Below, piece after piece: positions 2,473 to 13,792 of a stretch of 51,137 bases of DNA (position 1 is the first letter of the stretch; each line of letters begins with the position of its first letter). Origin of the DNA: Candidatus Liptonbacteria bacterium (lineage in GTDB: Bacteria; Patescibacteriota; Minisyncoccia; UBA6257; 2-01-FULL-56-20); the NCBI GenBank assembly GCA_016204335.1, contig JACQKU010000004.1:1-51137 (forward strand). Direction: 5' to 3'. Below the pieces are notes generated by a model, which saw only the letters and a program-made list of their open reading frames with translations, was not told where the DNA came from and made no database searches. The translations under genes and the position numbers were made by a program.

Positions 2473-2505
2473 CGCAAAAACCCGCTTTTCAAGGCGGGTT
2501 TTGCG
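2473..2505 (-). terminator. Rho-independent terminator downstream of tmRNA
   Basis: cgcaaaacccgccttgaaaagcgggtttttgcg on the minus strand: stem plus T-run. Confidence 0.75.
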
Positions 2506-2518
2506 AACAGAGTTCCAG

Positions 2519-2864
2519 TGGAGATGGGCGGGTTGAACCGCCGTGTAAAGATTGAACCAATGAACCTTCTACGAGCGTAGCCCGCCGAAGCGGACAGGGT
2601 TTGCCTCGTTTGTTTTAACCGAGCACATAACGAAGCTTGTGTGTTTCGGCGAGTTCCCTTATATAAGACCGGCTTCTCGCTCAAGGAACCCGAGCGAACC
2701 GATCCTCCCTGCTTCGCTAAAAGCTTCGCAGGACGAGCCTGTTAGGCGTAAGCGAATGCGGGAGCTGCAACTTTTTGGTTGGCAGTTATGAAATTTTGTG
2801 AGTTTAACGAGTTCACACTCGGCTCGCCAATTCACGATTCATCTCTATCGAAACCGTCATCCCC
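2519..2864 (-). ncRNA. ssrA: tmRNA (transfer-messenger RNA)
   Basis: 5' GGGGATGACGGTTTCGATAG and 3' GGCGGTTCAACCCGCCCATCTCCA form the tRNA-like domain; internal tag ORF at 2742-2783 (ANQKVAAPAFAYA*). Confidence 0.92.
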
Positions 2865-2972
2865 GAGACACAACTATAAGAGAAACCCGGCAAAAAAGCA
2901 AGTTTTGGCATACTGAAAATAGTTACACCCGCATTGAGCGAGCTGTAATCATTATTACGAAAATTGGAATTG

Positions 2973-3086
2973 CTATTTCTTCTTCATCGCCATCCCGCAA
3001 CACTTTCCGGCTTTGGAACCGCACCCTCCGCATCCCGAGCAGGAATAGCCCTTGCTCGCCTTTTTCACTGTTTTCTTTTTTCCCAT
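2973..3086 (-). CDS. 37-aa cysteine-rich basic miniprotein MGKKKTVKKASKGYSCSGCGGCGSKAGKCCGMAMKKK
   Basis: Read directly from the reverse complement; ATG to TAG; below the ORF-track length cutoff. Confidence 0.6.
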   Translation of the reverse strand: MGKKKTVKKASKGYSCSGCGGCGSKAGKCCGMAMKKK

Positions 3087-3222
3087 AGTTTTATTTCGAT
3101 TAACATTGTTTTCCGACCTTTTACTTTTTTATTATACCACCCGTGTCAAGTGCTTCCGCTTCTGTTTTTGCAAAAATGCGGTTGTCCTTGACCAGTGGCG
3201 CTGTTCGGAAACTTTGCTTAAT

Positions 3223-3320
3223 GTCATTGCAAGCGAGCAGGGCGAGCGCGCAATCTTTAAAAATACCCTGAGATTGCTTCGCTTTCGCCGAGCCAGACGC
3301 GACTTCGGCTCGCAATGACG
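3223..3320. repeat. Palindromic dispersed repeat (GTCATTGC..GCAATGAC family), copy 1
   Basis: Terminal gtcattgc / gcaatgac arms with internal gattgcttcgctttcgccgag, shared with 5419-5503 and 18132-18193. Confidence 0.8.
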
Positions 3321-3356
3321 AGTACTGGTTGACGAAAGTGCCGACTATACAGTATT

Positions 3357-3902
3357 ATGGACAAACGAAAAGGTGAAGTTTCGGTTCCACGAGCCATTAT
3401 TAGACCAAAAACCAACAATCAAATAACCGCGCCGGAACTCCGGGTTATCGGAGTAGAGGGCGAGAATCTCGGCGTGCTGTCGCTCGCGCAGGCGCTTGCC
3501 CTGGTCAGGCCCGGAGAAGGGATTGATTTGATTGAGATAGCGCCTGGCGCCAAACCGCCGGTAGCGCGGCTGATGAGCTTTGATAAATACCGCTATCTGC
3601 AGGAAAAGCTGGAAAAGAAGGCGAGGAGAGCGCAAAAAACAGCCGGAATAAAACAAATCCAGATAAGCGCGCGTGCCGCTCAAAACGACCTTATGATAAA
3701 AGTCCGGCAGCTCGAAAAATTTTTGGGCGAAGGTCACCGTGTGGAAATTATGCTTCGGTTGCGGGGGCGTGAACGGTTCGATAAAGGAAGAGCGCATCAA
3801 AAGCTGAAGGAATTCCTTCAAATGATAACGACCGAATATAAAATGTTGGCCGAACCGAAATTCGGCGGACGGGGCATGATGACCCACATAGCAAAAAAAT
3901 GA
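3357..3902 (+). CDS. infC: Translation initiation factor IF-3
   Basis: NNQITAPELRVIG...NLGVLSLAQAL...DLIEIAPGAKPPVARLMSFDKYRY. Confidence 0.95.
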   Translation: MDKRKGEVSVPRAIIRPKTNNQITAPELRVIGVEGENLGVLSLAQALALVRPGEGIDLIEIAPGAKPPVARLMSFDKYRYLQEKLEKKARRAQKTAGIKQIQISARAAQNDLMIKVRQLEKFLGEGHRVEIMLRLRGRERFDKGRAHQKLKEFLQMITTEYKMLAEPKFGGRGMMTHIAKK

Positions 3903-4087
3903 AAAAGAGTTTATCAAATCGGATAAAAATCACACGGACCGGAAAGCTTACGCGGAGGTCAATGGCCGTAAATCATTTCCGCACCAGGAAATCCACCGCC
4001 AATATCCGCCAAAAAAAGAAACAGAGAGGGCTGAATTATCCAAGAAAAGAACTTTTGAGTTATCTCGCTTCCGGATTGCTTAAATAA
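3899..4087 (+). CDS. rpmI: Ribosomal protein L35
   Basis: ITRTGKLTRRSMAVNHFRTRKS, located between infC and rplT. Confidence 0.9.
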   Translation: MKKSLSNRIKITRTGKLTRRSMAVNHFRTRKSTANIRQKKKQRGLNYPRKELLSYLASGLLK

Positions 4088-10728: not shown

Positions 10729-11388
10729 TTAAAACAACTTCTTCTGTGTGGGCGCTTCTGCTTTGGCAACACGCGTACCGCCCGCGTCGCTGGCGGGAAG
10801 TTCTCGCAAAAGCGATTCGGCCCCGCGGACGATTTCCGGCAGTTCTTTGAAACTTTTTTTCAGCGCTTCGAGCATCGTGGTCGAGCGGAGCGCGGCCGCG
10901 GGATGGAAAAACGGCACAACGAGAAAATCTTTGAAACGGAATATTTTCCCCTGGTCGCGGCTGATTTTCGCTTCGGGCAGAAAATGGTTCATTGAAAACC
11001 TGCCGAGCGTCGCCGCGACTTTCGGTTTCATTATCGCGATTTGCCTTTCAAGATACGGCTGGTACGCGCCGATTTCATCGGGGAGCGGGTCGCGGTTTTC
11101 CGGCGGCCTGCGTTTCACGATATTCGTGATATAGATATCCTCTCTTTTCCAGCCGATTTCATTGATAAGTTTATCGAGGAGTTTTCCCGACAAACCCACA
11201 AACGGCCGTTTCAGCCGGTCTTCGTGAAATCCAGGCGCTTCACCGATGAAAATGACGGCGCTTTCGGGATTCCCTTCGCCGAATACAAGGTTAGAGTCGC
11301 GGAGCGGCAGGGAAACGTCCGCGGCCATTTCTTGTTCGAGCTCCTCGAGTTGTTTCTGCTTTGACGGTCGGTCGACGGAGGATTCCAT
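10729..11388 (-). CDS. Uracil-DNA glycosylase, family 4-like, lacking all cysteines
   Basis: GEAPGFHEDRLKRPFVGLSGKLLDKL, YITNIVKRRPPENRDP, FFHPAAALR. Confidence 0.88.
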   Translation of the reverse strand: MESSVDRPSKQKQLEELEQEMAADVSLPLRDSNLVFGEGNPESAVIFIGEAPGFHEDRLKRPFVGLSGKLLDKLINEIGWKREDIYITNIVKRRPPENRDPLPDEIGAYQPYLERQIAIMKPKVAATLGRFSMNHFLPEAKISRDQGKIFRFKDFLVVPFFHPAAALRSTTMLEALKKSFKELPEIVRGAESLLRELPASDAGGTRVAKAEAPTQKKLF

Positions 11389-11447
11389 TCCTCAATTATA
11401 CTAAACTTAGACAATAATGTCGGCACTCTTTTGTGGCCATTGTTGCT

Positions 11448-11456
11448 TGTGGATAA
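11448..11456 (-). promoter_or_regulatory. Perfect DnaA-box match (TTATCCACA)
   Basis: tgtggataa, just upstream of the lexA-MTase promoter; could be chance. Confidence 0.35.
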
Positions 11457-11463
11457 CTCGATT

Positions 11464-11492
11464 TTGATTTTCTACTTTTGTTCTATTATAAT
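11464..11492 (+). promoter_or_regulatory. Sigma70-type promoter for the lexA-methyltransferase gene
   Basis: TTGATT-N17-TATAAT, 36 bp upstream of the ATG. Confidence 0.65.
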
Positions 11493-11527
11493 CAGTGCAT
11501 AAGAAATAAGCCGATTCTAAATCTATA

Positions 11528-12940
11528 ATGCTCACAAAACGCCAAAAAGAAGTTCTCAATTTCGTCGAAAGCTACTCGCAAAAGAAAGGATACGCTCCCT
11601 CGTTTGAGGAGATAAGAAAACGTCTCAAACTCGCCTCTGTTTCAACTGTTCATTTTCATATTTCGAAACTCAAAGAAGGCGGCTATTTGGGAAAAATAGA
11701 AAATAGAGCCCGCGCCATCAGCATTACTTCCAAAGAACCGATGGTAAAGATTCCCCTTTTGGGAACAATAGCCGCAGGACAGCCGATTGAAGCAATCCAA
11801 CAAAAAGAAATGATCGCCATTCCGAAAAGTAAAATCCCAGCTTCATCGGAAGTTTATGCTCTTCGCGTGGTCGGCAGCAGTATGATTGATGAAAATATCA
11901 ACGACGGCGATATTGTTCTAGTAAGGCAACAAGAAACTGCGGAGAATGGGCAAAAAGTCGTTGCTTTGATTGATAATCACGAAGCAACGCTCAAAAAATA
12001 TTATCGCGAGCGTGGATATGTTCGCCTGCAACCGGCAAACAAAAGTATGGAACCTATTATTTTGCGAAATGGTCGGGATTTTTCGATTCAAGGGATAGTG
12101 CTGGATGTTATTCGGGAAGAAGGAGCTTCAACAATTCAACTCCCTGAATACAAAGAAATAGAACAGCATAGAGAATTGCCGCTAAACGAAATTATTTGCG
12201 GTGATGCGATAGATGTAATGAAAACATTCCCACCAAATTCTATAGATCTTGTGGTAACTTCGCCGCCTTATGATGAATTAAGAAATTATAAAGGCTACAA
12301 CTTTGACTTCGAGGGTATTGCTAAGGGTTTATTTAGGGTGATCAAAAAGGGAGGTGTCTTGGTTTGGGTCGTTGGAGATAAAATTAAGAAAGGGAATAAA
12401 AGCCTCACAAGTTTCAAACAAACACTATTTTTTCAGGAAATTGGATTCAACGTTCATGACGTTATGATTTATAAGAAAAAAAATACACCTTTTATGAGGA
12501 CAAATAGTTATACAAACTGTTTTGAATTCATGTTTGTTTTCAGTAAAGGTTCGCCAAAAACATTTAACCCATTAAAAACTAAAACCGCAAGACAAGGGCA
12601 AGAAATGTTACCTTTCAACAAAGGACCAGATGGCATAAATAAAAAAAATTTAGGTGAACTTAAGCCCGAAAAAACAATGACAAATATTTGGGAATATGCC
12701 GTAGGTCTTTATGGAACAACAAGTGACAAGATTGCTTTTGAGCATCCTGCAGTTTTCCCGGAAAAATTAGCCGAAGACCATATTCTCTCGTGGACCAATC
12801 AAGGCGATGTTGTTTTTGACCCGATGTGTGGCTCTGGGACTACTTGCAAAATGGCACTGATGAACCATCGTTCTTATATTGGTTGTGATATATCTAAAGA
12901 GTACGTTGAACTAACCAAAAAGAGATTAAAAAATATTTAA
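11528..12940 (+). CDS. LexA repressor - beta-class DNA methyltransferase fusion
   Basis: LexA wHTH; Ala83-Gly84 cleavage site (TIAAGQP); Ser118 and Lys156; then CGDAIDVMKTFPPNSIDLVVTSPPYDE and FDPMCGSGTT. Confidence 0.93.
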   Translation: MLTKRQKEVLNFVESYSQKKGYAPSFEEIRKRLKLASVSTVHFHISKLKEGGYLGKIENRARAISITSKEPMVKIPLLGTIAAGQPIEAIQQKEMIAIPKSKIPASSEVYALRVVGSSMIDENINDGDIVLVRQQETAENGQKVVALIDNHEATLKKYYRERGYVRLQPANKSMEPIILRNGRDFSIQGIVLDVIREEGASTIQLPEYKEIEQHRELPLNEIICGDAIDVMKTFPPNSIDLVVTSPPYDELRNYKGYNFDFEGIAKGLFRVIKKGGVLVWVVGDKIKKGNKSLTSFKQTLFFQEIGFNVHDVMIYKKKNTPFMRTNSYTNCFEFMFVFSKGSPKTFNPLKTKTARQGQEMLPFNKGPDGINKKNLGELKPEKTMTNIWEYAVGLYGTTSDKIAFEHPAVFPEKLAEDHILSWTNQGDVVFDPMCGSGTTCKMALMNHRSYIGCDISKEYVELTKKRLKNI

Positions 12941-12948
12941 TCGTTCTG

Positions 12949-13521
12949 TTAAATAAATTTAATAGCTCTTTTTAGAATCTTTTTATCATCCTTAAATCTA
13001 CCTATTCCGGTATTACAACTATCACATACCCAACCCCTTACTTTTCCCGAATGATGATTGTGTTCAAGGACTACTTTACTAGTAATACCAGCAATAGTCC
13101 TTTTTGAACAAATAGGACACTCGAATGGTTCGTTCACTGGCTTGCTCTTCAACCATTTTTTCTTTTCTGCGCTACTTATATTAACTCCCTCAAGCTGTTT
13201 TCTACACTTTTGACATGATGGCCTTCGAACCGACCTATTATTTTTTGCGTTCTGATTTTTTGCAAACTCAACAGTACTTCTGAGTTTATGACAAATGTTA
13301 CAAATCTTTTTGGAGAAACCATCTCCAGTCTTTTTGACATCAAAAATTTTGAAATCATTTTTCTTTAAAGTAGCTTTTCGCCAAATTCTTATAAAAAAGA
13401 TAGAAGCACTTTCTTTTGATTCAGATTCAACAATGCCAACATCGTCTTTTTCAATCAAGATTTTGCCTGAAAGTTTTATATTCTTCTTAGCAAAGACGAA
13501 TTTATTAGTATACTGGTTCAT
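12949..13521 (-). CDS. HNH/beta-beta-alpha-Me nuclease, endonuclease VII / Hpy99I-like
   Basis: CNICH...CQKC and CPIC...LEHNHHSGKVRGWVCDSCNTGIGRFKDD. Confidence 0.85.
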   Translation of the reverse strand: MNQYTNKFVFAKKNIKLSGKILIEKDDVGIVESESKESASIFFIRIWRKATLKKNDFKIFDVKKTGDGFSKKICNICHKLRSTVEFAKNQNAKNNRSVRRPSCQKCRKQLEGVNISSAEKKKWLKSKPVNEPFECPICSKRTIAGITSKVVLEHNHHSGKVRGWVCDSCNTGIGRFKDDKKILKRAIKFI

Positions 13522-13720
13522 AGTTATTTCAAGAAAAAGTTGGTTTTGGTGTCTTCTGCGGAAGTCCCTATGTTCGCTAAAAGTTATGAGCGGACAGACT
13601 CAGTTCCCTTAGAATCCAGACTATTTCCAGTATTCTGCATCAACTAAGAAAAGTCAACGCGCCCCGCCATTGGCGGGACATAAGATTTTGTAACGCGCTT
13701 TGCACTAACAAAATCTAATG

Positions 13721-13792
13721 TGCCCTCGGGCCGATTCGAACGGCCATCGCCTCCTTCGGAGGGAGATATTCTATCCATTGAACTACGAGGGC
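13721..13792 (-). tRNA. tRNA-Arg (anticodon CCG)
   Basis: GCCCTCGTAGTTCAATGGATAGAATATCTCCCTCCGAAGGAGGCGATGGCCGTTCGAATCGGCCCGAGGGCA folds as a cloverleaf; CCA not encoded. Confidence 0.92.

Follow-up and report, generated by a model that had tools for sequence, protein, structure and literature searches.

A LexA-methyltransferase fusion convergent with an Hpy99I-like nuclease in Patescibacteria suggests a type II restriction-modification system carrying its own SOS-type repressor

The window (the whole 51,137-base stretch of patescibacterial DNA analysed here) contains two genes arranged tail to tail. The first (11528..12940, + strand) is an ORF of 470 aa with Pfam, TIGRFAM and PADLOC matches, encoding a LexA-methyltransferase fusion (M). 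The second (12949..13521, - strand) encodes a 190-aa type II restriction endonuclease of the Hpy99I family (R), as judged from Pfam, PADLOC and PDB matches. Their stops are separated by exactly 8 bases (12941-12948), and these ORF coordinates agree with the convergent orientation and spacing described in an earlier note on this DNA. The same note had correctly placed a tRNA-Arg gene beside the cassette: tRNA-Arg(CCG) lies at 13720-13792 (-), 198 bases upstream of the R start. It had also described the HNH gene, R, as AT-richer than its neighbours, which is real with respect to the flanks but not unique to R, the methyltransferase half of M being equally AT-rich. The G+C content is 0.34-0.37 across 12250-13749, ∼0.41 in the LexA part and ∼0.5 in the flanks. 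This AT-rich cassette (within 10729-13792) is flanked by a gene of the uracil-DNA-glycosylase superfamily (10729-11388, -) and by the tRNA-Arg gene, a position that would fit acquisition next to a tRNA gene.

M is preceded by a sigma-70-like promoter (TTGATT, 17 nt, TATAAT; 11464..11492, +) that matches 10 of the 12 consensus positions, a consensus match only, and R by a promoter-like site (TTGACT, 17, AATACT; 13629..13657, -) that matches 9 of the 12. Terminator-like hairpins, again consensus matches only, are located within R for the transcription of M (13310..13328, +) and within M for the transcription of R (12162..12183, -); this consensus search returned six terminator-like sites, with 2.3 expected. 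Since the stops are 8 bases apart, there is no room for a terminator between M and R and, with the hairpins lying inside the opposite genes, transcription of either gene would continue antisense into its neighbour.

The N-terminal part of the fusion is a complete LexA (TIGR00498, residues 2-197, 192.7 bits for a cut-off of 110.95), and the link between the methyltransferase gene and LexA made in the earlier note is thus confirmed by their presence in one 470-aa ORF. Pfam recognises three domains, LexA_DNA_bind, Peptidase_S24 and N6_N4_Mtase. The DNA-binding domain (residues 2-63; 11531..11716, +; PF01726, 6e-16) contains the recognition-helix residue F43 (11654-11656, +), singled out by comparing the LexA alignment with the operator class (see later in the text). 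The S24 autoprotease domain (residues 76-191; 11753..12100, +; PF00717, 1.6e-29) carries the cleavage pair A83-G84 (11774-11779, +), the protease Ser118 (11879-11881, +) and the protease Lys156 (11993-11995, +). All the elements of a LexA are therefore present, namely the winged HTH, the S24 protease, the A-G pair, the Ser and the Lys. Among 64 such fusions, the A-G pair is kept in 62, the Ser in all 64 and the Lys in 63; only L093, where LexA is incomplete, and L084, with a change at the Gly, deviate. The C-terminal part is a beta-class N4/N6 DNA methyltransferase domain with a TSPPY motif (residues 239-465; 12242..12922, +; PF01555, 2.5e-42), whose best PDB match is 8s9n, a DNA cytosine-N4 methyltransferase (1.4e-16).

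The genome to which the window belongs possesses a recA gene (contig C16). No standalone LexA of the subfamily of the fusion was found in this genome, where only the fusion itself and a 32% identical relative were detected. Downstream of this second LexA-like repressor (contig C18, locus L160, 4004-4681, -), and on its strand, lie a 178-aa ORF lacking a Pfam match (3496-4032, -) and a SMODS/DncV-like nucleotide synthase gene (2490-3491, -; PF18144, 1.6e-18); they form a CBASS-like operon, possibly under a LexA-type repressor. Proteins similar to this repressor are present in many genomes of the order.

R matches His_Me_b4a2 (PF18275, 4.4e-16) and Endonuclease_7 (PF02945, 6.3e-19) in Pfam, REase_II in PADLOC (PDLC03494, 6.3e-47, residues 7-189) and, by phmmer, the Hpy99I structure in the PDB (3fc3, 4.3e-47, residues 8-189). 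The endonuclease VII/Hpy99I-like fold proposed for this ORF is thus supported over its full length. The earlier note had counted two CxxC pairs forming a Cys4-type site; CxxC motifs are present, but the eight Cys form four pairs (74/77, 103/106, 135/138 and 166/169), probably two Cys4 sites rather than one. R therefore displays the beta4-alpha2 N-terminal domain, the beta-beta-alpha-Me part and the two Cys4 zinc sites of the Hpy99I family. At the active site, where the family has Asp-His-Asn, His154 and Asn170 are present and Glu153 replaces Asp (13063-13065, -). This metal-ligand position is Asp in 16 of the 17 other aligned relatives, the Glu being common to the R of the window and that of L036 (73% identical); the substitution may lower the activity of R. 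Phage endonuclease VII was considered as the nearest kin of R and rejected, all phage matches having <60% identity (33.1% at most among the 20 listed). An Endonuclease_7 match is what R has in common with T4-type endonuclease VII, whereas the Hpy99I N-terminal domain PF18275 and the neighbouring M set it apart and mark it as a restriction enzyme. No Hpy99I-like relative of R was found in viral contigs, and no near relative in plasmids, among which four records matched over 29% of the query.

When 84,980 species, each represented by one genome, were scanned for the nuclease, 18 loci with an Hpy99I-like R were obtained. A relative of M, with or without LexA, adjoins R in 17 of them (L051 is the sole exception), which indicates that the pairing in the window is not due to chance and supports the restriction-modification pair proposed in the earlier note. 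As predicted from its genes, the locus is a type II restriction-modification pair. The five loci whose bacteria have Patescibacteria-type names all possess LexA, fused to M in L036, L040, L041 and L050 and, in L038, encoded by its own gene immediately upstream of M; L050 has a frameshifted, or split, R gene. HNH homologues occurring without the fusion had been put forward as evidence against the pair. Such homologues exist, as LexA is absent from 13 of the 18 loci (MAGs named Proteobacteria, Chloroflexi, Spirochaetes, Planctomycetes, archaea and others), but a plain M still adjoins R in 12 of those 13. This points to LexA as an add-on to an ordinary restriction-modification pair, apparently a lineage-specific addition to the classical system. 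LexA and methyltransferase are separate adjacent genes in L038 (5551-6967, -) and also in L089 (3822-5324, +), with gaps of 1 and 30 nt, respectively; the LexA-like protein of L089 is only 28% identical. Both are possible unfused forms of the same design.

The closest known counterpart is the Hpy99I system of Helicobacter pylori J99, in which R is homologous over its full length and the methyltransferase is also beta-class. In contrast, the M of the window is joined to an entire LexA that has an operator of its own, its R has Glu at the ligand position, and its target is predicted only. M.Hpy99I is described in PMC3936762 as a beta-class m4C enzyme acting on CGWCG. By analogy with this specificity, our guess is that the M of the window probably makes m4C on CGWCG or a related site; avoidance of CGWCG within the window was not clear (120 occurrences for 142 expected).

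Fusions of LexA to a methyltransferase are recurrent. With the fusion as query, we searched 200 order and 379 phylum genomes and, among the best-scoring matches, assembled at least 64 fusions: that of the window, four from named MAGs, one from a viral contig, 38 from regions of the order and 20 from regions of the phylum. The sources include one R scan and one viral scan, and several fusions are close kin. Forty regions of the order were enlarged; the fusion count omits two of them, L088 (broken) and L089 (separate genes). The LexA parts are alike and the remainder of the proteins is not. The C-terminal families comprise PF01555, the C5-cytosine family PF00145 (five of the ten C-terminal parts scanned), the D12 N6 family PF02086 and MT-A70 (PF05063), and LexA is thus fused to at least four unrelated families of methyltransferases. 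The phylum of L042 was covered by 299 genomes, and none of the matches listed there joins LexA and M; a few matches lie within long open frames, and fusion to another domain is possible there.

In 61 of the 64 loci an ORF abuts the fusion stop (≤30 nt), convergent in 53 cases and co-directional in 8. As a control, a convergent neighbour is equally near in only 15 of 303 other ORFs of the same loci. The convergent pairs overlap by exactly 4 nt in 21 of 53 cases. The co-directional ORF is a second methyltransferase in L084 and L133, and seems to be R in L061, L064, L069 and L128. Restriction-enzyme models matched 21 of the 34 partners examined and left 13 without a match. PADLOC accounts for 19 of 31, a few of these matches being weak (e.g. 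L061 and L063), and Pfam adds L072 (BsaWI) and L085 (Bsp6I); BglII-, PvuII- and MutH-like proteins are among the other matches. Five partners of 324-347 aa share an invariant SxDSDG motif (L057 4406-5380, L058 3311-4354, L059 5872-6894, L060 3202-4191 and L093 4489-5490). The L057 member has no PADLOC or Pfam match and no PDB match by profile (the only one has E = 0.59), and the group is a candidate new family of restriction enzymes.

The front and back ends of the fusions swap. L068 and L129 are 93% identical in M, 87% in the partner and 69% in LexA, with GG and TA operators, respectively, while L057 and L128 are 92% identical in LexA and 31% in M. On the LexA tree (from which L091 and L093 were left out), standalone LexAs are interspersed with the fusions, requiring five changes, of which at least three are forced by starred branches; fusion or fission has thus occurred more than once. 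One fusion with an operator lies on a contig classed as viral (L127, IMG/VR IMGVR_UViG_3300045144_000341), and its convergent 305-aa ORF and the L135 partner share 82% identity; such cassettes may travel on viruses, or this contig may be misclassified host DNA. L125 and L126, two viral contigs of 116 and 367 kb, encode a methyltransferase of 68% identity that lacks LexA and might serve a phage as an anti-restriction methylase acting on the same target. Neither phage nor plasmid records gave a listed match that covers 80% of the fusion.

Inside the -35/-10 spacer of the M promoter lies a LexA operator, TTCTACTTTTGTTCTA, a direct repeat with an 11-base period (11470..11485, +). M thus combines, at the sequence level, an N-terminal DNA-binding part with an operator overlapping its own promoter-like site. 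The pattern TTC(TA/GG/GA)-N6-TTC(TA/GG/GA) is present upstream of 55 of 63 fusion genes, eight being without the strict form and L050 being excluded because its upstream sequence is too short. This is 230 times the background elsewhere in the same loci, and after mononucleotide shuffling 0.21 regions on average, and never more than 3, had an operator. In the genome of the window, the strict TTCTA-N6-TTCTA motif occurs once in 700,911 bases, at the M promoter. A direct-repeat LexA operator, GTTC-N7-GTTC, is reported for Alphaproteobacteria in PMC8565304. An 11-base-period operator and autoregulation are common to both cases; the present LexA differs in being fused to a methyltransferase and in its half-sites, TTCTA, TTCGG or TTCGA.

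In the LexA alignment, recognition-helix residue 43 is the column that best follows the operator class. It is Q, E or D in all 22 fusions with TTCGG operators and F, H or Y in all 29 with TTCTA or TTCGA operators, four mixed and nine operator-less fusions being set aside. On the LexA tree the labels require several changes, four for TA and five for GG, and L083 (GG, Glu43) is the sister of a TA-operator group; the link between residue and operator is therefore not one inherited coincidence. Because residue 43 predicts the operator class, the fused LexA is very likely to recognise the operator of its own gene, and the same evidence makes it very probable that it represses that gene.

A DnaA-box-like sequence, TGTGGATAA, is located just upstream of the M promoter (11448..11456, +) and has no other copy in the window. 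In 40 of the 63 fusion genes the upstream region contains TGTGGATA or its complement, at 109 times the background rate and starting 11-12 or 19-26 nt before the LexA operator; TGTGGATA(A), in either orientation, thus keeps a nearly constant spacing to the operator, about 11 or 22-25 nt. A DnaA-box-like site is also present at three of the four standalone lexA genes examined (L029, L031 and L032). There are hints here that lexA promoters are tied to DnaA.

From these observations, we consider it likely that the locus encodes a type II restriction-modification system in which the methyltransferase acts as its own LexA repressor, cleavable through RecA, and is induced by DNA breaks. Intact LexA-M would bind the direct-repeat operator in its own promoter and keep M low, R having no operator. 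When unmethylated chromosomal sites are cut, or other DNA damage occurs, RecA filaments would form and trigger self-cleavage of LexA-M at A83-G84, separating the DNA-binding domain from the S24-methyltransferase part. The promoter would be freed, M would rise and protection would be restored. In the least certain step, induced transcription of M would run antisense into R and damp it. The intact protease residues and the recA gene suggest induction by damage, and we infer the RecA-stimulated cleavage, the induction of M, the antisense damping and the target sequence. According to PMC3874152, antisense-type control is shown for EcoRI and Eco29kI, and an imbalance of type II restriction-modification systems is reported to induce the SOS response. 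Several points count against this explanation. M induced by damage could also favour a phage whose DNA is under attack, and a co-directional R would share the M promoter and be co-induced. To these are added the eight fusions without the strict operator, the Glu153 of R, the frameshifted R of L050 and the CGWCG sites, which the window does not clearly avoid.

It is unlikely, in our view, that the LexA part is a mere DNA-binding and dimerising module and that RecA-stimulated cleavage is irrelevant in vivo. The operator and helix evidence requires DNA binding alone, and methyltransferases autorepressing by an N-terminal HTH are known, e.g. Ecl18kI (PMC3874152), but such a role needs no protease residues, and their conservation across deep divergence counts against it. 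With Ecl18kI-type enzymes, as PMC3874152 presents them, M shares the N-terminal DNA-binding part and the operator overlapping the promoter. It differs in having a full LexA with its autoprotease, so that RecA should lift repression on damage, and in that M and R are mostly convergent in the LexA-M loci, not divergent.

The earlier note had suggested that LexA could control the nuclease or that the pair could be a damage-triggered abortive defence, R being repressed by LexA and released on damage. LexA does adjoin R, and some co-directional loci would put R in the same operon. However, no operator was found upstream of any of 52 convergent partners with ≥150 nt of upstream sequence (one of the 53 was omitted, being too near a contig end), upstream of any of 15 Hpy99I-like genes, or within 250 nt upstream of the R of the window, and the only strict operator of the genome is at M. 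Neither suggestion was borne out, the missing operators exclude an R under LexA for the convergent majority, and a nuclease triggered by SOS appears highly improbable. With the operator only at the fusion promoter, damage would increase M, the antidote, rather than R, the toxin.

We give very little credence to the idea that LexA serves to target the methyltransferase to SOS operators across the genome or that the fusion is the SOS master repressor. The lack of a standalone LexA of the same subfamily in this genome would favour it, but the strict operator occurs there only once. The wider pattern TTCKRN6TTCKR is uninformative, with 52 matches for 28 in the reversed control, and names no regulon, the match nearest recA falling within a neighbouring ORF. 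Equally hard to credit is a decaying cassette with an inactive R and an orphan autoregulated methyltransferase, for which the Asp to Glu change and the split R of L050 would speak, since R is otherwise intact in length and retains its eight Cys, His154 and Asn170, and the Glu common to L036 indicates that the gene has persisted in this form.

The system whose methyltransferase would be its own RecA-cleavable repressor also resembles C-protein restriction-modification systems, in that a dedicated DNA-binding protein sets the balance between M and R. In contrast to these, the regulator of the window is fused to M, has a LexA fold and has its operator at M only; no ORF for a separate small HTH controller was found between M and R. 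How cells survive their own restriction enzymes is a long-standing question, and the solutions known so far rely on timing (by C proteins), on autorepression or on antisense RNA. The parts are known, and what we did not find in the literature searched is a methyltransferase acting as its own SOS repressor and used as an exchangeable control module. No report of a natural LexA-methyltransferase fusion was found in that literature, which excluded the Patescibacteria SOS-network paper (PubMed 28618189), and LexA is not mentioned in the available portion of PMC12707154.

A broader reading, which we advance tentatively and hold at somewhat below even chances, is that Patescibacteria have repeatedly built self-monitoring restriction-modification systems in which breaks raise M and convergent transcription lowers R. 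LexA and its operator would then form an exchangeable cartridge, combined with methyltransferases of four or more unrelated families and with many mutually unrelated nucleases. A LexA-methyltransferase gene with an abutting ORF provides a search handle for new restriction enzymes, given the 13 of 34 partners without a model match. If the proposed mechanism is true, the loop would be closed directly, damage made by R calling for M, and self-restriction would be a measured and corrected quantity; a ready-made RecA-switched methyltransferase would be at hand for study. It would also represent a defence-control module of small-genome bacteria, which constitute a large part of uncultured diversity.
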